This document shows positions 1 to 10,283 of a stretch of 10,283 nt of DNA, piece after piece. The notes beneath the pieces are model-generated. The model was not told where the DNA came from and ran no database searches. It saw only the letters and a program-made list of their open reading frames with translations. Position 1 is the first letter of the stretch; each line of letters begins with the position of its first letter. This DNA comes from Bacteroidota bacterium (GTDB lineage: Bacteria > Bacteroidota > Bacteroidia > Chitinophagales > UBA10324). The stretch is from positions 1-10,283 of the forward strand of contig DMRR01000217.1 of NCBI GenBank assembly GCA_003455275.1. The letters are read 5' to 3'. A program made the translations under genes and the position numbers.

Positions 1-353
1 TAATTGTCTTTATTGAATTTTCCTCCGGCATGAAGAACAGTAAGCACCACTTCGAGCGCGCTCTTTTTTTCTTTCTTCATTATTTCGGTTGGAATACCGC
101 GACCATCATCTAGCACAGTGATGGAATTATTTTCATTGATAGTGACAGAAATGTTTTTGCAATAACCGGCGAGCGCTTCGTCAATTGAGTTGTCAACTAC
201 TTCATAAACTAAGTGGTGTAATCCGCGCACTCCTATATCGCCGATATACATGGCTGGGCGCATGCGAACCGCTTCGAGTCCTTCAAGAACTGTAATGTTT
301 TCGGCGGTATAATTCTGAGGTTTTTTTGTTTCCAATGTTGCTTCTTCTAACAT
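1..353 (-). CDS. gyrB: DNA gyrase subunit B, N-terminal part (runs off left edge)
   Basis: This is the ATPase subunit of DNA gyrase, which with GyrA introduces negative supercoils. Only the first 117 codons are inside the window; the reading frame is open to base 1. The visible part is the start of the GHKL ATPase domain. It has [11 protein letters not shown] at about residues 29-39, then [19 protein letters not shown] with the expected catalytic Glu51 and Mg-binding Asn55, then DDGRGIP at 82-88, and HAGGKF at 108-113 at the start of the ATP lid. The start at 353 gives a short variable leader ([10 protein letters not shown]) before the conserved core. No Shine-Dalgarno sequence is visible, as is usual in Bacteroidota. 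The topoisomerase IV subunit ParE is the main alternative. The [14 protein letters not shown] wording and [12 protein letters not shown] favour GyrB, but the missing C-terminus would settle it. Confidence 0.93.
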
Positions 354-555
354 GATTTTTAAGGTGATGATGGTCTTATTACCAATGTGCCCAAATGTAA
401 TTTCTGAGAGGGGTATTAGCTAATTTTTCCCTCTGAAAAAGTGAAGTTTTATTTCACTGCAAGTGTTGAAAAATTACTGATGGATACAGGCCGTAGAAAT
501 GCACTTTTACTGGCACAATTTTGAATAAAAAGCGCCTTTAAAAAATTCTTAAATC

Positions 556-1110
556 ATGTCGAAAAAAATCAGCTCCATCCTGTTTCTTCTTTTTCTTTCT
601 GTTTCTGTCTTTGCCCAGAAAAACAAACCCGTTGCTCCCGTTCTTCCGATTGATGATGAAACCAAGTTGGTAAGCTACACAGGTGTGGTAGATGCTACCG
701 GAGTTTCAAAAAGCGAAATGTTTAAGCGCGCCATGGCATGGACAAAAGAATTTTTTCCAAGTGCAACGGCGGTTCAAAGTGCCGATACAGTTGAGATGAA
801 AATTATTTGCAAGGGAAAATTTGATTGCAAACGCGAAGTGAAAGGCAGCCAGCCCGTAACAAGCGATAGAATTATTTACACGCTCACCATCGCTTTTAAA
901 GACGGACGCTATAAATATGAAGTCACCAAGATTTTAGTTCAGGGACAAACCAGCGTTCCAATTGAAAAATATTTTGATGATGCTGATCCAAAAGCTGAGG
1001 ACCACTTCAACACACTCACTCAAGTAGATGAAAATATTACTGCACTCGTAAATTCACTTAAAACACGAATGGAGCAACCCAGTGTAAAGGTGAAAAAAGA
1101 TGACTGGTAG
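556..1110 (+). CDS. Secreted DUF4468 domain protein
   Basis: A 184-residue exported protein of unknown function. Residues 1-20 form a signal peptide (positively charged start, a run of Leu/Phe/Ser/Val, then VFA-Q as a likely signal peptidase I site). There is no lipobox cysteine. The mature part begins with a proline-rich linker and then matches the DUF4468 (TBP-like fold) pattern as I know it: PIDDETKLVSYTGVVDATGVSKSEMFKRA, an AMAWTKEFFP helix, a central strand region with YTLTIAFKDGRYKYEVT, and a C-terminal helix with a basic tail. This family is common in Bacteroidota, often as single genes with no known role. It is convergent with gldH (58-bp gap) and divergent from gyrB (202-bp gap), so it is probably transcribed alone. 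The first ATG is chosen because it gives a complete signal peptide. The family call is by eye. Confidence 0.85.
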   Translation: MSKKISSILFLLFLSVSVFAQKNKPVAPVLPIDDETKLVSYTGVVDATGVSKSEMFKRAMAWTKEFFPSATAVQSADTVEMKIICKGKFDCKREVKGSQPVTSDRIIYTLTIAFKDGRYKYEVTKILVQGQTSVPIEKYFDDADPKAEDHFNTLTQVDENITALVNSLKTRMEQPSVKVKKDDW

Positions 1111-1134
1111 TGGCGATGACTCTAAAGCAAAGCG

Positions 1135-1155
1135 AAAATTCTTATTGAATTTTTT
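1135..1155. terminator. Possible bidirectional terminator between convergent genes
   Basis: Between the ends of the DUF4468 gene and gldH there is a perfect 7-bp inverted repeat (AAAATTC at 1135-1141, GAATTTT at 1147-1153) with a 5-base loop. The T run at 1150-1155 on the plus strand overlaps the stem. The stem is A/T-rich and weak, so this is a candidate only. Its position between two convergent genes is the main support. Confidence 0.35.
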
Positions 1156-1168
1156 AGAAAAAAATACT

Positions 1169-1660
1169 TCAGTTTTTATCTTCTGTTGAGATAGTTTTCT
1201 CAACCCTTACGCCCATATCCATAATCCCGGGCAATGGATCCTGTCGCATGATCTGTTCGAATGTAAAAGAGTAGACACCCTTTTGGTTGAAGAATGCGTT
1301 TTGCTGAGCAAGAAATTTATAATCCCAGATATCGCCCATACCTTCTCCGAACCAGGAGCCATCATCAGTTGAGAGAGGAATCTCTACACGCTGTCTTTCC
1401 TGTTTGCCATCTGGTGAAGTGGTAGTGACCATCAGCCACAAATTGCTGTAAGGATAGACACTTGCATGCCGGACATTAAAATAAACATTATAGTAAGCAG
1501 ATGTATCATTTACACTTACTTCGAACTTCAATTGATTCTTGCTATACCACAGGTAATTATCAATCGAAATATTTTTTTCAAAAACACGATTTTTATCACA
1601 GCTGAAAAAAGATACAGCTATCACGGTAAACAATAAAAAACGGAATAATGATTTCATCAT
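1169..1660 (-). CDS. gldH: Gliding motility lipoprotein GldH
   Basis: A 163-residue outer-membrane-type lipoprotein. Residues 1-20 are a lipoprotein signal peptide (MMKSLFRFLLF..., lipobox FFSC) with Cys21 as the acylated residue. The mature part fits GldH: an early aromatic NYLWYSKNQLKFEV segment, then the conserved stretch YYNVYFNVRHASVYPYSNLWLMV at about 57-79, a P-x-G turn, and DDGSWFGEGMGDIWDYKF at about 99-116. GldH is required for gliding in Flavobacterium johnsoniae, where it works with other Gld lipoproteins. It is also found in non-gliding Bacteroidota, so it does not by itself prove motility. It follows ricT on the same strand after 80 bp, a pairing that I recall as recurrent in the phylum. 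Two adjacent ATG codons could start it (1660 or 1657). No Shine-Dalgarno sequence is seen. Confidence 0.87.
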   Translation of the reverse strand: MMKSLFRFLLFTVIAVSFFSCDKNRVFEKNISIDNYLWYSKNQLKFEVSVNDTSAYYNVYFNVRHASVYPYSNLWLMVTTTSPDGKQERQRVEIPLSTDDGSWFGEGMGDIWDYKFLAQQNAFFNQKGVYSFTFEQIMRQDPLPGIMDMGVRVEKTISTEDKN

Positions 1661-1740
1661 TTTGTGGCTGCTGAAGTGAAATTCTTTTTCAAACTTATTT
1701 TATGAATTAACGATGATTTGTAATTTCCATTATTATAAAA

Positions 1741-3102
1741 TCATCCAACAGATGGGCGTGTAGGTCCGCTATTGTAGCGGTTGGGTTTGGTGCGGTTTTG
1801 CTGAGGATTCTGTTTAGGTTTCTGTTGTGGCTTTGCGGGAGATTTTTGCTGAGGTTGATTTTGTTTTTGTTCTTGCGATTGTTGTTTCCCTTTCTGTTGT
1901 GGTTGATTTTGATTTCTGTTTTCAGTTTTATGCTGAGGCTGATTTTTTCCGTCACGGCGCTCACGGTCCCTACCGCGGTTGCGGCTTTTCTTTTTCTTTC
2001 CTCCAAGTGATTCCAAAGTTGTTTGCCCTACAGTATCAGCATATTTAAGGTCTTCTTCAGTATCTGATTTTCTGGTAGGTGTTTTCACGGCATAGTTGCC
2101 AAGGTCGGCAGGTTTTACTCCGTTTTTATTCATGGCTACAATTTCATTCACCTTGTCCACGGTGAGTGGATGGAAAACATTTTTTTCTTTATATGTAAAA
2201 TACATAAGCCTGCGAAAGACATCGGTCTTCTGAAGGTAAGCAATACCGCTTTCGGTTTCAATTTTCTCCAAATTTTTTGGAAAGTCTTGCAACGCATCAA
2301 GGTAGGTATCGAGCTCATAATTTAAACAGCATTTCAGTCGCCCGCACTGCCCGGAAAGTTTGGCCTGGTTAATTGAGAGCTGCTGGTAACGAGCGGCAGA
2401 GGTAGTAACGCCCTTGAATTCTGTGAGCCAGGTGCTGCAGCAAAGCTCGCGTCCGCAGGAACCAATTCCTCCTATGCGCGCAGCTTCCTGCCTTGCACCA
2501 ATATGATTCATTTCAACCTTTACTTTAAATTCAGCTGCATATGCTTTAATAAGTTCGCGAAAGTCAACCCTGTTTTCAGCGATGTAATAGAAGATGGCTT
2601 TCTTTCCGTCGCCCTGGAATTCTACATCTCCGATTTTCATATCAAGATTCATACTGCGGGCGATTGCGCGTGCGCGAACCATAGTTGGCTGGTCGCGTTT
2701 GCGGGCTTCTTCCCACCGGTTCATATCAAAATCATTTGCCTTGCGAATAACAGACCGCAATGATTTGTCTTCTGCAATTTTCTTCCGCTTCATCTGCAGC
2801 CGCACAAGCTCGCCGGTGAGTGAGGCAACTCCTACATCCTGCCCGCCCATCTCTGTTTCAACCACTACTACATCATGAGTATCAATCGGCAGTTTGTTGT
2901 TATTGCGGAAAATTTCTTTTCGCGATCCGTTCTTAAAGCTTACTTCAATAAACCGCGTGATTTCATCATCGTAACCTACCTGAACACCTGAAAGCCAGTC
3001 GTAGGTATTAAGGCGATTGCAACCGCCATTTGAACAACTTCCGTTGCTTTTACATCCAGTGGGCTTGCCATTTGCGGATGAGGTGCATCCGTTACAAGCC
3101 AT
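1741..3102 (-). CDS. ricT: RicT/YaaT-type PSP1 domain protein with Cys-rich head and Q/N/K-rich tail
   Basis: A 453-residue cytoplasmic protein of the RicT (YaaT, PSP1 domain) family. In Bacillus subtilis RicT is part of the RicA-RicF-RicT complex, which carries iron-sulfur clusters and affects RNase Y and mRNA maturation; the role in Bacteroidota is not established. Three parts are visible. Residues 1-30 have five cysteines (3, 6, 17, 23, 28). Residues from about 35 to 335 form the conserved core, including two near-duplicate motifs CGRELCC (216-222) and CGRLKCC (253-259), the expected cluster ligands. Residues from about 369 to the end form a basic low-complexity tail of Lys, Arg, Gln, Asn and Pro with NQPQ(Q/H)K at 387, 399 and 415. 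It lies between holB (149 bp upstream) and gldH (80 bp downstream), all co-oriented. The start gives the usual MACNGC head. Confidence 0.9.
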   Translation of the reverse strand: MACNGCTSSANGKPTGCKSNGSCSNGGCNRLNTYDWLSGVQVGYDDEITRFIEVSFKNGSRKEIFRNNNKLPIDTHDVVVVETEMGGQDVGVASLTGELVRLQMKRKKIAEDKSLRSVIRKANDFDMNRWEEARKRDQPTMVRARAIARSMNLDMKIGDVEFQGDGKKAIFYYIAENRVDFRELIKAYAAEFKVKVEMNHIGARQEAARIGGIGSCGRELCCSTWLTEFKGVTTSAARYQQLSINQAKLSGQCGRLKCCLNYELDTYLDALQDFPKNLEKIETESGIAYLQKTDVFRRLMYFTYKEKNVFHPLTVDKVNEIVAMNKNGVKPADLGNYAVKTPTRKSDTEEDLKYADTVGQTTLESLGGKKKKSRNRGRDRERRDGKNQPQHKTENRNQNQPQQKGKQQSQEQKQNQPQQKSPAKPQQKPKQNPQQNRTKPNRYNSGPTRPSVG

Positions 3103-3110
3103 AGTTTCTT

Positions 3111-3157
3111 GATTTGAAGGTTTGGAGATTTGAAAATTTAAAAATGAATTTCAAATC
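3111..3157. repeat. Octamer-periodic intergenic repeat, copy A (upstream of ricT)
   Basis: This A/T-rich element has an 8-bp period (units close to GATTTGAA, GGTTTGGA, GATTTGAA, AATTTAAA, AATGAATT). It matches copy B at 4466-4511 at 41 of 46 positions. Within it GATTTGAAA (3127-3135) and TTTCAAATC (3149-3157) form a perfect 9-bp inverted repeat with a 13-base loop. It ends 8 bp upstream of the ricT start codon, so it would be in the mRNA leader or promoter. Confidence 0.8.
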
Positions 3158-3198
3158 CAGAATATGATTATTAGTCACAGTTTTATTTTTTGATTTTA

Positions 3199-3240
3199 TG
3201 TTGAGAGAAAAACTGAGTGAATAATTTTTATCTCTCAACA
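3199..3240. repeat. Perfect 10-bp inverted repeat after holB
   Basis: TGTTGAGAGA (3199-3208) is the exact reverse complement of TCTCTCAACA (3231-3240), with a 22-base loop whose ends can add three more A-T pairs after one mismatch. It lies 11 bp past the holB stop codon on the minus strand. This suggests a transcript-end structure or attenuator between holB and ricT. On the minus strand the sequence after the stem is A-rich rather than T-rich, so it is not a textbook intrinsic terminator. A protein-binding site is the alternative. Confidence 0.6.
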
Positions 3241-3251
3241 AGTATAGATAT

Positions 3252-4451
3252 TCAGGTCAAAACTATTTCTTTTCTCTTTAACACCTGTGAAATAAAAATG
3301 CCGAGATTCATGAACAGCATTTTTGGATTTGCATTTCTTTCAAGGTGATAGTAAGATTCTTCCAGTTTCCTGACGATTTCTTCCTTGCTGTTTAAGAGCA
3401 GCCTCGAATTTACATATTGTGCTAACTTCAATTCACTTTCAGTGAGCCTTGTTTTTTTTTCACCTAAATAATCCAGCACAATTACTTCGCGGAATAAATC
3501 CAGGCCGTATCGAATCAGACCTTTCAGGTTTTCCCGGCCCAAACCCGCCGACTTTTCGGTGAAATTGATGAGGGTTTGGTTTTCATGTTTTCCGCTTACA
3601 CAGATTCTGAGGAAATGAAGAAATAACTTTTCGTTATCGTCCTCAGCATTTCTTATTAATCGAAGTGCTTCGCTGTAATTTCCGTTTGCAAGTCGTGCAA
3701 TGCTGTGAGCTTCTTTTGCAGCTATGTTTTCTTTTTTCTCTAACTGTTCAATCAAATCTTCATCGGCTATTCGCGGAACTTTTATGATTTGAACTCTTGA
3801 AAGAATGGTGCTCAATATTGCTTCCTCGTTTTCTGCCACCAGAATGAAAATTGTATTCTCCTGTGGTTCTTCGAGGGACTTTAATAAAATGTTTCCTTCT
3901 TTTCCCAGCAACTCAGGCATCCAAAGAATAAAAATCTTGAAGTGCGATTCAAAAGTTTTCAGATTTAGCCTACGGATTATTTCCTGGCATTCCTCGGCAG
4001 TAATATTTCCCTGTTTGTTTTCTGCATCAAGCGATTCCAGCCAATCCTGAACACTCAGATAAGGATTTGGAAGAAAATATTTTCGCCACTCTTCCATAAA
4101 ATCGGCGCTTGTTGGTTTGCTGACAGACTTACCATCCTTAGAAGAAACAACCGGAAATGTGAAATGGATATCAGGGTGAATGAGTTTGCTTGCTTTTAAA
4201 CAAGATGAACATTCGCCGCAACTGTCAGAAATAATTTTTGCGGTGCTTTCACCAAACAGTTCTCCGGAATTTGAATGAAGAGATGAAACTTTTTCACAAT
4301 TCAAATATTGAGCAAATGCAAGAGCAAGCGGAAGATTTCCGCTCCCCTCATTGCCAAGCAACATGATGGCATGAGGAATTTTTTTGTTCTCCACACTCGC
4401 AACCAATTGTTGCTTCAGTTTTTGCTGCCCAATAATGGATGAGAATTGCAT
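3252..4451 (-). CDS. holB: DNA polymerase III delta' subunit
   Basis: A 399-residue clamp-loader subunit (AAA+ family). Delta' is the stator of the complex that opens the beta clamp and loads it on primed DNA. Near the N-terminus are FSSIIGQQKLKQQL and IPHAIMLLGNEGSGNLPLALAFAQYLNC. The Walker A position (33-40) has no Lys-Ser/Thr, so no ATP is expected to bind, which fits a delta' rather than a DnaX subunit. Cys52, Cys78, Cys81 and Cys84 are placed like the zinc-binding cysteines of the family. FILWMPELLGKEGNILLKSLEEPQENTIFILVA at about 173-205 is the Walker B and following-helix region, with DEAD residues replaced. ILSRVQIIKV at 216-224 is the sensor-1/SRC-like segment. The C-terminal region is helical, as expected for the oligomerisation domain. 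It heads the holB-ricT-gldH run. The start codon follows repeat copy B by 14 bp. Confidence 0.92.
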   Translation of the reverse strand: MQFSSIIGQQKLKQQLVASVENKKIPHAIMLLGNEGSGNLPLALAFAQYLNCEKVSSLHSNSGELFGESTAKIISDSCGECSSCLKASKLIHPDIHFTFPVVSSKDGKSVSKPTSADFMEEWRKYFLPNPYLSVQDWLESLDAENKQGNITAEECQEIIRRLNLKTFESHFKIFILWMPELLGKEGNILLKSLEEPQENTIFILVAENEEAILSTILSRVQIIKVPRIADEDLIEQLEKKENIAAKEAHSIARLANGNYSEALRLIRNAEDDNEKLFLHFLRICVSGKHENQTLINFTEKSAGLGRENLKGLIRYGLDLFREVIVLDYLGEKKTRLTESELKLAQYVNSRLLLNSKEEIVRKLEESYYHLERNANPKMLFMNLGIFISQVLKRKEIVLT

Positions 4452-4693: not shown

Positions 4694-6391
4694 ATGAATT
4701 TCAATTCACTTTTTCGAAAGAAACCACTCACCACACTACTTGAAGAAGTAAAAAAAGGTCAGCACGAATCAGAACACAATCCGCAAATGGATACTGGCGA
4801 AGTTTCACTTCATCGCACTTTAAGAGTTCGTGATCTGACCGCATTTGGAATTGCGGCAATTATTGGTGCAGGTAGTTTTAGTTCCATGGGCGCGGCATGT
4901 TTTAGTGGAGGGCCAGGTGTAATTTTCCTTTTCATTATTTGTGCAGTAGCGTGCGGGTTCACGGCATTGTGCTATGCTGAGTTTGCTTCGCGGGTTCCAA
5001 CATCAGGGAGCGCTTACACTTATTCTTATGTTGCTTTCGGTGAAATGTTCGCATGGATTATTGGCTGGGCTTTACTGATGGAATATTCAATTGGAAATAT
5101 TTATGTCGCATTTGCATGGAGTGGATATTTTACAAATCTCATTGGCGCGGTTGGAATGCATATTCCGGAATGGTTGACGATAAATTATACAGCGGCCCAT
5201 CAGGCATTTGATAAAGGTGTAGCAGGAGAAGGAATGATTGCATGGAATACTGCTCCGATGATTGGCAATCTCAGAATCATTTTCGATTTACCTGCTGTGA
5301 TTGTAAATGCATTGATCACCTGGTTGGTTTATATTGGTGTAAAGGAGTCGAGAAATTTTAGCAATGCAATGGTGGCTATCAAACTTGCAATTGTTTTGCT
5401 GGTGATTGTGGTCGGATGTTTTTATGTTGATATAGACAACTGGTCGCCTTTTATGCCTAATGGTTTTGGTGGTGTGATGAGTGGAGTGGCAGCTGTCTTC
5501 TTTGCTTATATCGGTTTCGATGCAGTGTCAACTCTTGCCGAAGAAAGTAAAAACCCGCAGCGCGATTTGCCCCGAGGGATGATTTATTCATTGGTGATTT
5601 GTACAGTGCTTTACATTGTTCTTTCGCTTGTACTAACAGGAATGGTGAAATCAGACATGCTCGGAGTAAGCGATCCACTTGCCGAAGTATTTAAAATAAA
5701 AGCAGTGAAATGGATGTTGTTCATTGTTTCGATTGCTGCTGTGGTGGCCATGACGAGCGTGCTTCTTGTTTTTCAAATGGGGCAACCTAGAATCTGGATG
5801 AGCATGAGCCGCGATGGATTGCTCCCAAAAAAGTTTTCTTCAATTCACCCGAAATATAAAACACCTGCCTTTGCAACGATTGTGACAGGACTGGTGGTTG
5901 GTGTTCCATTATTTTTTACGGATGAAAATTTTGTGCTCGACTTCACAAGCATCGGAACATTATTCGCATTTGTATTGGTGTGTGGTGGTGTGCTTCTTCT
6001 TCCGAGAAAAGAAAATAATTCAGGTACAGGATTTCAGCTTCCTTATATCAACGGAAAATTTTTGGTGCCTCTTATCGTCGGTGTAACATTTTCATTTCTC
6101 TATTACCAGTTTCCTGATTACTTTAAAAATCTACTGAATGTAAATGCGGATAATGCAGCCCAAGATATTCCAATGCTGATTTTTATTGTGCTGTGTTTTG
6201 TGATGGCAGTTCTTTCCTCCCTGAAAAATTATTCTCTCATTCCTGTGCTTGGAGTTTTATCGTGTTGTTATCTTCTTACCGGAATGGCAGTGAGCAATTG
6301 GTCGTGGTTCGCAACCTGGCTGGTGATTGGATTGGTTGTTTACCTGCTGTATGGATTCAGGAAAAGTAAGCTGAATACATCAGGCAAGTGA
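4694..6391 (+). CDS. APC-superfamily amino acid permease (CAT-like)
   Basis: A 565-residue inner-membrane transporter, probably a proton- or gradient-driven amino acid importer. About 45 hydrophilic residues precede the first membrane segment. That segment has GIAAIIGAGSFSSMG (52-66), the APC motif in which unwound TM1 (GxG) binds the substrate backbone. GGPGVIFLFIICAVACGFTALCYAEFASRVPTSGSAYTY follows, the TM2-TM3 signature. IGFDAVSTLAEESKNPQRDLPRGM in the middle is the TM6/TM7 loop signature. QMGQPRIWMSMSRDGLLPKKFSSIHPKYKTPAFATI is the TM8-TM9 loop. I count roughly 12-14 hydrophobic segments. The length and motifs are most like the cationic amino acid transporter (CAT/YfnA) group, but substrate cannot be read from sequence. 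It is divergent from holB by 242 bp, and its 3' end overlaps the convergent repressor gene by 12 bp. Confidence 0.9.
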   Translation: MNFNSLFRKKPLTTLLEEVKKGQHESEHNPQMDTGEVSLHRTLRVRDLTAFGIAAIIGAGSFSSMGAACFSGGPGVIFLFIICAVACGFTALCYAEFASRVPTSGSAYTYSYVAFGEMFAWIIGWALLMEYSIGNIYVAFAWSGYFTNLIGAVGMHIPEWLTINYTAAHQAFDKGVAGEGMIAWNTAPMIGNLRIIFDLPAVIVNALITWLVYIGVKESRNFSNAMVAIKLAIVLLVIVVGCFYVDIDNWSPFMPNGFGGVMSGVAAVFFAYIGFDAVSTLAEESKNPQRDLPRGMIYSLVICTVLYIVLSLVLTGMVKSDMLGVSDPLAEVFKIKAVKWMLFIVSIAAVVAMTSVLLVFQMGQPRIWMSMSRDGLLPKKFSSIHPKYKTPAFATIVTGLVVGVPLFFTDENFVLDFTSIGTLFAFVLVCGGVLLLPRKENNSGTGFQLPYINGKFLVPLIVGVTFSFLYYQFPDYFKNLLNVNADNAAQDIPMLIFIVLCFVMAVLSSLKNYSLIPVLGVLSCCYLLTGMAVSNWSWFATWLVIGLVVYLLYGFRKSKLNTSGK

Positions 6392-7192
6392 TTTCTCCAT
6401 CTTCTCTTTCATCACTTTTATTTCTTTCTCCATCTTAGTAACTGCAGACAGCAATTCGTCTTTCTGAAAATTCGGTTCAGGAATTTTTGAACTGATATAG
6501 TTGCAGAACTTCCACACTTCCCGGATATCGCCTGCTGAAATTTCATAAGGTTCAAATAATGGATTGAGCGAGCGAAGCGTGAGTTTCTTTTTTCTTCTCA
6601 ATTGATTGTAAGCAATCTTGAAAACAATTCCATCATCATGCGTGAGAATGATGTATCCATTTCCATCTTTTATCTCAAACCAATTCTCAACATATTCTGT
6701 AATCACCCAACTCTTGTCTTCAATGGGAAACATGGAGTCGCCGCTGATTTGAAACATGCGATACTTCCGGTCATTAAATAAAATTGGAAGCTGAAATGAT
6801 GGAAGCCGCTTGATGTAATCAGGATCGGCGTAACCATTCCGGTAGCCGGCTGCTGCTTTCAGGTTCACTACTTCAATATTTTCCTTGTTGTGGCTGTCAA
6901 TACTTGTAGCAAGCACACGCAATTTGCTTCCTTTTATATAGGCATCGTGGCCGCCTTCCAGTTCAGCAAGATTGGTTTCGGAAATTTTACTCAGATCAAT
7001 TTTAATAAGCGTGTCAATAGACACTCCGTAGTATTTAGAAAAGTTGAGCAATGCTTCGAGGGTAGGATTTATCACACTTCCGTTTTCATAGCTGTTCAGG
7101 GTTGCCCGGCTGATTCCCAATTCAGCGGCGGCTTTTTCCTGGGTGAACTGACTGCGGGTTCTCAGAAAGCGGATATTGGAATTAAAGTGCAT
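6380..7192 (-). CDS. LexA-like repressor: XRE/CI helix-turn-helix fused to S24 peptidase
   Basis: A 270-residue repressor, likely inactivated by RecA-stimulated self-cleavage. Residues 4-65 are an XRE/CI-type helix-turn-helix (IRFLRTRSQFTQEKAAAELGISRATLNSYENG). A linker carries LKAAAGY with the Ala115-Gly116 bond in the place of the LexA/UmuD/CI cleavage site. The S24 domain has ISGDSMFP with nucleophile Ser153 and GIVFKIAY with Lys192; their 39-residue spacing is close to that in LexA (Ser119, Lys156 in E. coli). An unusual Lys/Glu-rich C-terminal helix (about 240-270) follows. The frame is open upstream to an ATG at 7237, but that codon lies inside the palindromic operator. The ATG at 7192 starts directly before the helix-turn-helix and is preferred. 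It is divergent from dinB, and the operator upstream suggests it represses itself and dinB-dnaE. Phage CI-like or umuD-like origin is possible; no phage genes are near. Confidence 0.88.
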   Translation of the reverse strand: MHFNSNIRFLRTRSQFTQEKAAAELGISRATLNSYENGSVINPTLEALLNFSKYYGVSIDTLIKIDLSKISETNLAELEGGHDAYIKGSKLRVLATSIDSHNKENIEVVNLKAAAGYRNGYADPDYIKRLPSFQLPILFNDRKYRMFQISGDSMFPIEDKSWVITEYVENWFEIKDGNGYIILTHDDGIVFKIAYNQLRRKKKLTLRSLNPLFEPYEISAGDIREVWKFCNYISSKIPEPNFQKDELLSAVTKMEKEIKVMKEKMEKSLA

Positions 7193-7223
7193 GACAAAAA
7201 AATATTTTTCAGAAAATTGTTTT

Positions 7224-7264
7224 TGATTGTAATACAATCATTAGTTTTGATTGTAATAATTTCA
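7224..7264. promoter_or_regulatory. Tandem palindromic operators for the LexA-like repressor
   Basis: TGATTGTAATACAATCA (7224-7240) is a perfect palindrome with 8-bp arms around one central base. A second copy, TGATTGTAATAATTTCA (7248-7264), matches it at 14 of 17 positions and starts 24 bp later. A 14-base direct repeat (TTTTGATTGTAATA at 7221 and 7245) covers the left halves. The pair sits 31 bp upstream of the repressor start and 29 bp upstream of the dinB start. This fits cooperative binding of a dimeric CI/LexA-type repressor controlling both directions. The binding protein is inferred from position. Confidence 0.7.
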
Positions 7265-7266
7265 AA
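7235..7266 (-). promoter_or_regulatory. Possible repressor promoter (Bacteroidota type)
   Basis: On the minus strand TTTG (complement of CAAA at 7263-7266) is followed after exactly 19 bases by TA at 7243-7242. This spacing resembles the -33 TTTG and -7 TAnnTTTG elements described for Bacteroidota, but the TTTG half of the -7 box is poor. Both operators overlap it, as expected for autorepression. Confidence 0.3.
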
Positions 7267-7276
7267 AGTAGAAAAC
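7246..7276 (+). promoter_or_regulatory. Possible dinB-dnaE promoter (Bacteroidota type)
   Basis: TTTG at 7246-7249 is followed after 19 bases by TAGAAAAC at 7269-7276, which keeps only the TA of the -7 consensus. A start site near 7283 would leave a leader of about 10 bases before the dinB ATG. The second operator starts within the TTTG element, so a bound repressor would block it. The -7 match is weak. Confidence 0.3.
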
Positions 7277-7293
7277 ATTTTCTCAATCGCCAA

Positions 7294-8490
7294 ATGCTGT
7301 TAACCACCGAACGAAACATCGTGCACATGGATCTGGACTGCTTCTTCGTATCAGTAAGCCGGTTGCTCAACCCGAAATTGAATGGCAAACCCGTGCTCGT
7401 AGGCGGCGGCGAGCGTGGAGTAGTGGCAGCATGCAGTTACGAGGCGCGCAAGTTTGGGATTCATTCAGCCATGCCTATGAAGCAGGCGAAGCGCCTGTGC
7501 CCCGAAGCCATTATTGTTCGCGGCGATTATGATGAGTACACAAAGTACTCCGACATTGTGACTGAAATCATCAGCGAGAAAGTTCCGGTGTATGAAAAAT
7601 CTTCGATTGACGAATTCTACATTGATCTCACCGGCATGGATAAATTTTTCGGCAGCTACAAATTCATTCTGGAACTGTGGGAGAAAATTAAAAAGAACAC
7701 AGGGTTGCCTCTGTCCTTTGGGTTGAGCCCGAATAAAACAGTTTCAAAAATTGCGACTGACGAAGCGAAGCCATGCGGGCAAATGAAAATTAATTTCGGT
7801 GCGGAAAAACTTTTTCTTGCTCCGCTTACGGTCAGCAAAATTCCCGGCGTGGGAGAAAAAACATATCACCTGCTGCGCAGCATGGGCGTGCAATACATCA
7901 ACACCCTGCAGCAAATGCCGGTTGAGCTGATGGAGCGCGCACTTGGCGAAAACGGAACCACCATCTGGAAAAAAGCAAACGGCATTGACAATTCGCCGGT
8001 GGAACCTTACGATGAACGCAAGAGCATCAGCACCGAAGAAACTTTTGACAGCGACACTACTGATGTGCAGCAGTTGAAATTTATTCTGATCAAGATGACC
8101 GAGAAATTGTGTTACCAGTTACGCGACGAAGTGAAACTGACCTCGTGTGTAACAGTCAAGATTCGTTATTCTGATTTCGATACACACACCATGCAGTCGC
8201 GCATTGCTTACACCTCAAGCGACCATGTACTTATTGCGCGTGTGAAAGAATTGTTCGACAAACTGTTTCAGCGCCGCATGCTCATTCGGTTAGTGGGCGT
8301 GCGCTTCAGCCACTTAGTGCGCGGCGGTTATCAGATCAATTTGTTTGAAGATTCAGAGTCGGTGATAAAGCTCTACCAGGCGATGGACAGAATGCGCAGA
8401 AGGTACGGAAGCGATAAAGTGCTTCGCGCCGCAGGAGTTGGTTTTTCCATGCGCGGGTTCAATCCGTTTAATGGGATAAGGAAAGTATGA
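7294..8490 (+). CDS. dinB: Y-family DNA polymerase IV (DinB type)
   Basis: A 398-residue translesion DNA polymerase. The palm has IVHMDLDCFFVSV with catalytic Asp13 and probable steric-gate Phe18, and SSIDEFYIDLTG with Asp106-Glu107. These correspond to Asp8, Phe13 and Asp103-Glu104 of E. coli Pol IV, so the enzyme should be active. AACSYEARKFGIHSAMPMKQAKRLCP (46-70) is the fingers region, and SKIPGVGEKT (181-190) is the thumb helix-hairpin-helix. The little-finger domain follows. QINLF (347-351) fits the QxxLF beta-clamp-binding consensus and is followed by a helical tail of about 45 residues rather than lying at the C-terminus. The start at 7294 is needed because Met12 would remove the first beta strand. 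There is no Shine-Dalgarno sequence. The stop is 6 bp before dnaE, so the two are probably one operon under the shared operators. Confidence 0.93.
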   Translation: MLLTTERNIVHMDLDCFFVSVSRLLNPKLNGKPVLVGGGERGVVAACSYEARKFGIHSAMPMKQAKRLCPEAIIVRGDYDEYTKYSDIVTEIISEKVPVYEKSSIDEFYIDLTGMDKFFGSYKFILELWEKIKKNTGLPLSFGLSPNKTVSKIATDEAKPCGQMKINFGAEKLFLAPLTVSKIPGVGEKTYHLLRSMGVQYINTLQQMPVELMERALGENGTTIWKKANGIDNSPVEPYDERKSISTEETFDSDTTDVQQLKFILIKMTEKLCYQLRDEVKLTSCVTVKIRYSDFDTHTMQSRIAYTSSDHVLIARVKELFDKLFQRRMLIRLVGVRFSHLVRGGYQINLFEDSESVIKLYQAMDRMRRRYGSDKVLRAAGVGFSMRGFNPFNGIRKV

Positions 8491-8496
8491 CGCGCT

Positions 8497-10283
8497 ATGT
8501 ATCTCAACTGCCACTCTTATTTCAGTTTCAAATACGGCACGCTCAGCGTTGAAAAACTTTTAGCGGAAGCACAGCAGAAAAATATTTCGCGGCTTGCGCT
8601 CACTGATATTAATAACACTTCAGGAGTTTTGGATTTTGTGCGGCTCGCTTCGCGATATGGAGTAACACCTGCCGTTGGAATTGATTTTCGAAACGGTGTG
8701 CAACAACAGTTCATTGGAATTGCACGCAACAACAATGGATTTCTTGAACTGAATGATTTTCTATCACCACACCTTCATGCAGAAAAAAAAACGGAGAAAG
8801 AAATTGCGCCGCGCGCACCGCAGTTTGATCATGCGTATGTCATTTATCCTTTTGGAAATATTCCGGTGAATTCGCTTCGCGAAAATGAATTCGTTGGAGT
8901 AAAACCGGGCGAGCTCAACAAACTTCTTTTTTCTGATCTGAAAAATTATCCGGACAAATTAGTGGCGCTCGCTCCCGTTACTTTTAATTCTAAAAAAGAT
9001 TTTAATGCGCATCGCCTGCTGCGCGCCATGGATAACAACACGCTGTTGTCAAAACTTGCCGCCACAGAACAAGCTCAGCCCGGTGAAATGATGATGAGCG
9101 AAGAAAATTTGCGATTGCTGTATGCGCGTTTTCCGTTTCTGATTTCGAATGCTAAAAAAATTCTCAGCGATTGCTCCATTCATTTTGATTTCGGAAAAAG
9201 CAAGAACAAAAAATATTTTACCGGCAATGCTGCCGCCGACCGCGAACTGCTGCGCCGCGAATGCCGCGACGGAATGAGTTACCGCTATGGCGCAATTTCA
9301 AAAACAATTTCTGACCGGCTCGAAAAGGAACTGATGATGATTGAGGAAAAAGATTTTTCCGCTTACTTCCTCATCAACTGGGACATTGTGCGCTATGCGC
9401 AGCACAAAAATTATTTCTACATCGGGCGCGGCAGCGGCGCCAACAGCTTGGTGGCTTACCTGCTTCGCATCACGGATGTGGATCCCATTGATCTGGATTT
9501 ATACTTCGAGCGGTTTATTAATCCTTCGCGCATTAATCCGCCCGATTTCGATATTGACTTCAGCTGGAAGGACCGCGATGATGTAACCGATTACATTTTC
9601 GCGCGGCACGGCACGCGCCACACTGCACTGCTTGCCACTTACAGCACACTGCAATCAAATGCAGTGGTTCGTGAGCTGGGAAAAGTTTTCGGCTTGCCGA
9701 AAAATGAAATTGATTCCATACAGGAGCGCTACGAAAAAAATTCGCGCGACAAATACCTTCAACTCATTTTTAATTATGGAAATTACCTGCACGATTTTCC
9801 TTCGCACCTCAGCATTCATGCAGGCGGAATATTAATTTCAGAGGAACCCATTCACGCATACACGGCAACCAACCTTCCGCCGAAAGGTTTTCCAACCACA
9901 CAGTTCAGCATGTTGGAAGCAGAGGATGTCGGGTTATACAAATTCGATATTCTCTCGCAGCGCGGGCTCGGGCACATTAAGGACACAGTAGAAATTGTGA
10001 AACAAAACCGCCGTGAGAAAATTGACATACACGATATCAAACGGTTTAAGAAAGATGAACGGGTGAAAGAACGATTGAGCCAGGCGCGCTGCATGGGTTG
10101 CTTTTACATTGAATCGCCTGCGATGAGAATGCTTTTGAAAAAATTGGAAGTAGATAATTATCTCGGGTTGGTTGCTGCGAGCTCCATCATTCGCCCCGGT
10201 GTGGCGCGCAGCGGCATGATGAAGGAATACATTATCCGTTACCGCAATCCGGCGAAGGCAACTTATGTGCATCCGCTCATGCA
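8497..10283 (+). CDS. Second-type DNA polymerase III alpha subunit (DnaE2-like), partial
   Basis: The first 595 codons of a C-family DNA polymerase; the right edge cuts it. The N-terminal PHP domain is recognisable (NCHSYFSFKYGTLSVEKLL, ALTDINNTSG, GVTPAVGIDF) but has lost expected metal ligands: the usual HxH is Asn4-Cys5-His6, and the usual TDH is Thr36-Asp37-Ile38. The palm keeps GRGSGANS (310-317) and PDFDIDF, with catalytic Asp352 and Asp354. YKFDIL supplies the third, Asp484. SIHAGGILIS and GCFYIESPAMRMLLKKL are also family signatures. The catalytic pair lies about 50 residues earlier than in E. coli DnaE (Asp401, Asp403), so the N-terminal region is shortened. The partnership with dinB and a LexA-like repressor points to an inducible, error-prone or repair polymerase and not the main replicase. 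AAGGAAAG 11 bases before the ATG is a weak ribosome-binding candidate. The main dnaE is expected elsewhere in the genome. Confidence 0.9.
   Translation, partial: MYLNCHSYFSFKYGTLSVEKLLAEAQQKNISRLALTDINNTSGVLDFVRLASRYGVTPAVGIDFRNGVQQQFIGIARNNNGFLELNDFLSPHLHAEKKTEKEIAPRAPQFDHAYVIYPFGNIPVNSLRENEFVGVKPGELNKLLFSDLKNYPDKLVALAPVTFNSKKDFNAHRLLRAMDNNTLLSKLAATEQAQPGEMMMSEENLRLLYARFPFLISNAKKILSDCSIHFDFGKSKNKKYFTGNAAADRELLRRECRDGMSYRYGAISKTISDRLEKELMMIEEKDFSAYFLINWDIVRYAQHKNYFYIGRGSGANSLVAYLLRITDVDPIDLDLYFERFINPSRINPPDFDIDFSWKDRDDVTDYIFARHGTRHTALLATYSTLQSNAVVRELGKVFGLPKNEIDSIQERYEKNSRDKYLQLIFNYGNYLHDFPSHLSIHAGGILISEEPIHAYTATNLPPKGFPTTQFSMLEAEDVGLYKFDILSQRGLGHIKDTVEIVKQNRREKIDIHDIKRFKKDERVKERLSQARCMGCFYIESPAMRMLLKKLEVDNYLGLVAASSIIRPGVARSGMMKEYIIRYRNPAKATYVHPLM

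Follow-up and report, generated by a model that had tools for sequence, protein, structure and literature searches.

The Locus and Its Products

The window, that is, the whole 10,283-nucleotide stretch of DNA analyzed here, forms the first 10,283 bases of a 19,913-base contig (DMRR01000217.1, or L003) in the 2.2-Mb genome (G000) of an uncultured Bacteroidota bacterium, assembled in 277 contigs and about 80% complete. It carries the gene of a self-cleaving type of repressor divergent from a dinB-dnaE pair, and the control region between them contains two predicted operators. The divergent arrangement had been proposed from the sequence (the original prediction) and is borne out by Pfam domains and coordinates. 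The window stops at 10283, within dnaE, because an N gap (10284–10658) begins directly after its last base.

The repressor gene (6380–7192, minus strand) encodes 270 residues with a CI-type helix-turn-helix (HTH) domain and an S24 domain (Pfam HTH_3, 2.3e-12; Peptidase_S24, 1.3e-6). An alignment of seven sequences, the window's included, favors the ATG at 7190–7192 as the start, and a TTG at 7237 is also in frame. Across the same alignment the Ser153 of a GDSM motif, Lys192, and the predicted scissile Ala115-Gly116 are unchanged. A CI-type HTH joined to an S24 domain with Ala-Gly and Ser-Lys identifies the protein as a non-canonical LexA of the Bacteroidetes kind, a name that the original prediction had given to related repressors; in this comparison relatives bearing a published operator motif stood in for the published proteins. 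Such repressors control operons of dinB and a DNA polymerase III (pol III) α subunit gene, and in one species the repressor lies opposite an error-prone polymerase and mitomycin C induces both (Sanchez-Osuna 2021, PMC8565304). For these relatives, mitomycin C induction and operator binding were demonstrated and cleavage was deduced (PMC8565304). Among the 16 genomes of the family comparison, the window's own included, 12 have a repressor at least 64% identical to that of the window (this one counted), and one more has a 45% identical version with an internal stop. Phage matches to the repressor amount to three weak ones, 25–39% identical over about half the length, and they speak neither for nor against a recent phage origin. 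A six-frame search of the genome with PF00717 gave no match and missed the window's own repressor too, so it is uninformative on other S24 proteins.

DinB (398 residues; 7294–8490, plus strand; 101 bp from the divergent repressor gene) matches Pfam IMS at 1.6e-47, and the genome search found it as the single Y-family protein, together with a single RecA. It had been expected to be catalytically intact and to bear a clamp motif. Asp13, Asp106, and Glu107 are indeed present and invariant among nine aligned sequences (window included), and residues 347–351 (8332–8346, plus strand) read QINLF, which we take to be a β-clamp-binding-like motif. Residues 354–378 (8353–8427, plus strand) resemble the RecA N terminus (RecA-NT) and are a predicted RecA contact: they align ungapped to residues 6–30 of the genome's own RecA with a score of 42, matched by none of 5000 shuffles. 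A RecA-NT-like motif has been reported in Y-family members (PMC6511836). DinB proteins at least 55% identical occur in 12 of the 16 family genomes.

The dinB stop codon (TGA, 8488–8490) and the dnaE ATG (8497) are 6 bp apart with no gene between them, and imuA is thus missing from this position as predicted. The 5' part of dnaE (8497–10283, plus strand) encodes the PHP, DNA_pol3_alpha, and finger domains of a DnaE2-like pol III α subunit. Reading the contig past 10283, which had been suggested as a check, shows that the gene resumes beyond the N gap, with an HHH_6 domain in its 3' part, and ends at contig position 11780. The aspartates of its DFDIDF and KFD motifs match those of DFDVDF and KFD in the Escherichia coli α structure, and therefore the readable part shows an apparently intact polymerase site. 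The genome's other α subunit is DnaE1-like (1145 aa, contig C187), so that the cassette dnaE is not the only one present, a point on which the original prediction had staked itself. The PHP motifs of the two differ, with NCHS and TDIN in the cassette protein versus HVHT and TDHG in the other, and therefore the PHP metal site of the cassette DnaE looks broken. According to a 2013 survey, an intact PHP metal site is missing in most DnaE2 proteins (PMC3919608). The DnaE of family genome G004 (L147:2717–6412, minus strand) ends in a domain resembling 2'-5' RNA ligases (PF13563, residues 1046–1195), a type of tail present in this one alone of 37 DnaE proteins searched.

Two Apparently Active Polymerases without a Detected ImuA

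Judged from sequence, the locus is best read as a cassette that DNA damage would induce, supplying two apparently active polymerases and lacking imuA. Its resemblance to the ImuA-ImuB-DnaE2 mutasome lies in a repressor-linked Y-family protein accompanied by a second α subunit; unlike that system, the window's Y-family protein keeps its active site, and neither ImuA nor ImuB was found. The sole match of an ImuA profile in this genome, about 80% complete, was RecA, below the cut-off. Absence of ImuA is only moderately firm, because the ImuA model stayed below its cut-off in every control genome as well, Caulobacter included. Membership in the ImuA-ImuB-DnaE2 group was rejected on the intact catalytic residues of DinB and the failure to find ImuA.

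A close counterpart is known. Timinskas and Venclovas reported that a Y-family polymerase is paired with DnaE2 in Bacteroidetes. They called the two “two apparently active polymerases”, named them PolY2 and DnaE2, and described the module as lacking ImuA and ImuB-C (2019, PMC6511836); a 2026 survey in NAR names the module DnaE2B-PolY-RecA (PMC12926913). The novelty that the original prediction had placed in the module therefore lapses. The window shares with the published module an active Y-family protein with the RecA-NT motif, a linked second pol III α subunit, the lack of ImuA and ImuB-C, and its occurrence in Bacteroidetes. Nothing categorical sets the two apart: the window is an uncultured Bacteroidota member with a repressor alongside.

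Gene order was compared at 80 DinB loci, the best 80 of 575 confirmed relatives in named genomes, and the counts consequently describe near relatives of the window's DinB, the closest of which come from uncultured Bacteroidota. Two pairs of contigs (L022/L037 and L028/L043) are apparently identical. Repressors were detected with the window's repressor at a limit of 1e-5, and misses may reflect short contigs or divergent sequences. The conserved neighborhood that the original prediction proposed to look for is there: a repressor is divergent from dinB at 33 of the 80 loci, dnaE follows dinB within 1.1 kb at 28, and both features coincide at 14. At 18 loci the order is dnaE-dinB, with the repressor divergent from dnaE at nine of these, and at two more (L060 and L062) the repressor lies upstream of dinB on the same strand. 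Other family genomes vary further. In G005 and G009, dinB and the repressor gene share a contig but are 46 and 84 kb apart, respectively, and the G012 repressor has no dinB close by. At the G005 dinB locus (L023), dinB and dnaE are about 1 kb apart, and the 153-aa open reading frame (ORF) between them (about 3605–4066) resembles an IS200-type transposase by eye. Overall, the ImuA-less active polymerase pair appears as a recurrent Bacteroidota unit, often linked to its repressor.

Several observations weigh against assigning the locus to this cassette type. The assembly gap interrupts dnaE, and the middle portion of the gene is not readable. General DnaE models give higher scores than the DnaE2 model, and for a full-length relative the scores are 533 bits (DnaE model) and 474 bits (DnaE2), both under the cut-offs. 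The expected DnaE domains are thus found, but the DnaE2 grouping made in the original prediction is ambiguous by hidden Markov model (HMM) scores, and DnaE2 remains a plausible label. In addition, at 15 of the best 80 loci no repressor and no dnaE is seen linked to dinB. Even so, the locus is probably a cassette for SOS-type mutagenesis that belongs to the published DnaE2B-PolY-RecA group and is controlled by a non-canonical LexA.

Less certain is whether DinB and DnaE would work as a complex. Both surveys treat the polymerase pair as a putative complex with RecA (PMC6511836, PMC12926913), and the two genes are repeatedly linked in either order. The competing explanation is co-regulation without a complex, in which two independent translesion polymerases each reach the clamp alone and no DinB-DnaE mutasome forms. 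Both proteins look active, no further gene lies between theirs in the window, and an [LM]F occurs at the α-subunit clamp-motif position after the HhH region in 36 DnaE C-terminal regions (two shorter proteins omitted). Moreover, the genes are not adjacent in part of the family: in G010 and G014 the two are on opposite strands, with dnaE about 1.8 kb downstream of dinB. On this evidence, independent action is a serious possibility, although the recurrent linkage makes it the less probable of the two.

A Pair of Operators at Near-Fixed Spacing

The predicted operator O1 (GATTGTAATACAATC, 7225–7239, no strand), supported by motif search, is a perfect 15-bp palindrome; O2 (GATTGTAATAATTTC, 7249–7263, no strand) follows at 24 bp, center to center. 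A perfect 7-1-7 palindrome arises in 3.6% of 20,000 shuffles of the 101-bp intergenic region. A palindromic motif search of 15 upstream regions returned GATTGTAnTACAATC with a log-likelihood of 85, versus 18–26 in five shuffled sets; these were 15 of 30 regions, chosen after sites had been noticed by eye, with L025–L028 omitted as near-copies of L024 and with 40 restarts for the real set and 15 for the shuffled ones. The result is a predicted palindromic operator, GATTG-N5-CAATC, with a fixed 5-bp spacer and common to both divergent genes. O1 matches the consensus at 20.1 bits and O2 at 8.0 bits.

The second site recurs at a set distance. At 16 of 18 loci, 23 or 24 bp separate the first site from its best partner (200 shuffled runs gave a mean of 0.5 such loci and at most 4), with the scoring matrix built without the locus under test; L042, L051, and L071 joined the test after a motif scan, and without them the count is 14 of 15. 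The pair precedes dinB at L020, L021, and L023 even though the repressor is elsewhere, and it is found upstream of nine of 13 related repressor genes. Among these nine are the G005 gene, distant from its dinB, and the G012 gene, with operator spacings of 24 and 23 bp, respectively, so that the motif is linked to this repressor; the G012 instance is not fully independent, because G012 belongs to the same genus as G010–G015. In a tree of 45 repressors, a branch with support 97/85 separates the eight that have the window's operator from the others, CTAA-type repressors among them.

Motif discovery in the 2021 study yielded only CTAA-N5-TTAG and GGA-N5-TCC, with diverged palindromes such as TTAC-N5-GTAA in some paralogs and two or more sites in several promoters (PMC8565304). 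Neither CTAA-N5-TTAG nor GGA-N5-TCC is the conserved motif of the window's clade in the 15 upstream regions. The operator class follows one repressor clade and is distinct from both published motifs. The window's system is nonetheless like the published ones in its CI-like HTH, its S24 domain with Ala-Gly and Ser-Lys, its palindrome with a 5-bp spacer, its error-prone polymerase targets, and a repressor that can sit opposite the polymerase (PMC8565304); it is unlike them in having GATTG-N5-CAATC and in a recA that is not visibly targeted.

Pairing extends to other operator classes. In a second set of 35 loci, the best second site lies 22–24 bp away at 25 (shuffles: mean 2.3, maximum 6 in 100 runs); four of the 35 (L059, L071, L074, and L087) are common with the 18-locus set, and 22 of 31 are paired without them. 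By class, pairing is seen at six of nine CTAA-type loci (five at 23 bp and one at 22), eight of nine flavobacterial loci with a repressor divergent from dnaE-dinB (22 bp), six of 11 Cyclobacteriaceae loci (23 bp), and five of the remaining six. Some mates score low, that of L046 at 1.1 bits. At four of four flavobacterial loci picked for a perfect GGA-N5-TCC, two perfect copies lie 19 bp apart. Within the best 80 loci, a perfect CTAA site stands beside five repressors that are 36–39% identical to the window's. The 11 Cyclobacteriaceae repressors in the tree (L077, L078, L083, L086, L092, L093, L095, L097, L098, L112, and L115) are shorter, at 231–232 aa, and carry Ala-Ser (KASYL) in place of the Ala-Gly that marks the predicted cleavage site of the others.

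The operators also lie at candidate promoters. The Bacteroidetes −7 consensus is TAnnTTTG. A fitting element, TAGTTTTG (7242–7249, plus strand), lies between O1 and O2 as the candidate −7 element of dinB, and a search for the same pattern placed a candidate for the repressor gene, TACTTTTG (7263–7270, minus strand), at the edge of O2. Across 41 aligned rows, TAnnTTTG occurs at or beside the operator pair in 12 on the forward strand (shuffles: mean 1.1, maximum 5) and in 12 on the reverse strand (mean 2.5, maximum 6), many of the matches coming from related flavobacterial loci; L040 and L110 were entered at their class spacing despite a higher-scoring site elsewhere, and the L080 row is out of register. 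With −7-like elements at the pair on both strands, bound repressor could block both promoters.

Does the pair act as a unit? Each divergent promoter could instead have one operator of its own, with no cooperativity between repressor dimers. The unequal strengths of O1 and O2 and the weak mates elsewhere would fit such an arrangement, as would −7-like elements pointing in both directions. So would the CTAA-type loci without an adjacent repressor, which are mostly single-site: 10 of 18 have a site of at least 12 bits, and only three of these 10 are paired at 22–24 bp (shuffles: mean 0.6, maximum 4), the mate in L058 scoring below zero. By this last result, pairing is not general away from an adjacent repressor; it weighs against the switch proposed here, as do two other observations. 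The operator is missing before four of the 13 related repressor genes (G001, G003, G004, and G009), and in G004 the repressor gene that lacks it comes after dnaE, with dinB, dnaE, and the repressor on one strand in that order. A rule that every operator is paired was ruled out by the CTAA-type loci without an adjacent repressor. The spacing, however, is nearly fixed within each repressor class while the spacers have diverged (identity over 12 loci is 0.48 for spacers and 0.69 for operators), and the pair accompanies dinB genes that lack a divergent repressor as well as the isolated G005 and G012 repressor genes. A one-operator-per-promoter arrangement is for these reasons unlikely. A perfect half-site match is also present elsewhere in G004, at L121.

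Reach of the Regulon

Apart from the cassette, this genome matches the operator with up to two mismatches at 11 places, all of them within ORFs and all without a mate. One-mismatch matches to the paired half-sites number 15 besides the cassette, none with two good operators; 14 are inside ORFs of at least 90 aa and the last is in a gapped ORF of 1441 aa. The paired half-sites occur 16 times in this genome versus nine for the reversed control and 19 versus eight times in G005. A wider regulon defined by such half-sites (up to one mismatch, 16 genomes) was rejected, with 384 places versus 370 for the reversed control and no enrichment. The sequence suggests a dedicated one-operon switch, the cassette being the only good target seen in about 80% of the genome at up to two mismatches.

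The region before this genome's recA has no site, the best candidate scoring −1.0 bits, a value equaled in 90% of shuffles. By comparison, the recA of G006 has a good single site (11.5 bits, reached in none of 200 shuffles), the sole convincing one among 14 family recA regions, and weak sites precede recA in L154, L157, L163, and L164 (p = 0.04–0.06). Places within three mismatches of the operator number 144 in the genome versus 67 for the reversed pattern, an excess that may reflect composition or further sites. That the repressor is the organism's global LexA, with the cassette as one of many targets, is improbable: related repressors do rule larger regulons that include recA (PMC8565304), and the recA sites of relatives and the three-mismatch excess point the same way, but in this genome, about 80% complete, recA has no site and the matches within two mismatches lie in ORFs without mates.

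Proposed Mechanism and Significance

In an undamaged cell, the repressor would sit as two dimers on O1 and O2, at or beside both candidate −7 elements, and would hold down its own gene together with dinB-dnaE. From the S24 residues present, we infer that RecA filaments formed on damaged DNA would trigger self-cleavage at Ala115-Gly116 and thereby open the promoters. Active DinB and the active DnaE2-like polymerase would then be produced together. DinB, anchored on the clamp through QINLF and on RecA through the RecA-NT motif, may bring DnaE to the template or share the template with it, and the outcome would be error-prone bypass.

The ImuA-less active polymerase pair and its repressor family are already published, and the operator pair is the part worth testing. 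What this analysis adds is the predicted target sequence of the repressor and the strict two-site layout of the control DNA, neither of which was found described. The main text of PMC8565304 contains no “cooperativ”, no ATTG motif, and no strict tandem spacing, and its supplement lists further diverged palindromes; in the later open-license literature, no study of tandem operators in non-canonical LexA-type repressors was found.

Phage λ CI offers the nearest precedent, as it binds cooperatively to operator pairs about two DNA turns apart (PMC8053113). The window's repressor likewise combines a CI-type HTH with an S24 domain and has two operators about two turns apart (24 bp), and the 22–24 bp seen at most paired loci comes near the λ distance. 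Unlike λ CI, it belongs to a chromosomal system with two operators at the promoter, and its dimers may bind cooperatively. Two operators at a fixed distance offer a precise hypothesis, cheap to test, of how the polymerase pair is switched. If cooperativity holds, this would be a bacterial SOS circuit with the sharp on/off logic of phage λ, and recA could stay outside it.

A broader proposal is as likely to prove wrong as right. In it, the phage-type SOS repressors facing Bacteroidota dinB/dnaE cassettes would bind as paired dimers to tandem operators, with a spacing set by repressor class (24/23, 23, 22, and 19 bp), a λ-like switch kept by the bacterial SOS response. The window's clade would have its own third operator sequence, and in this genome its control would have narrowed to a switch devoted to a single mutagenesis operon.

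Surrounding Genes

An amino acid permease gene (4694–6391, plus strand) and the repressor gene on the minus strand overlap tail to tail by 12 bp (6380–6391). Positions 3–4451 encode, on the minus strand, the N-terminal part of a GyrB-like protein (named by eye; HATPase_c), a GldH lipoprotein, a PSP1 protein, and a pol III delta-type subunit, and, on the plus strand, a DUF4468 protein. Beyond the window, a second N gap on the contig (15893–16292) falls within the gapped 1441-aa ORF noted above.

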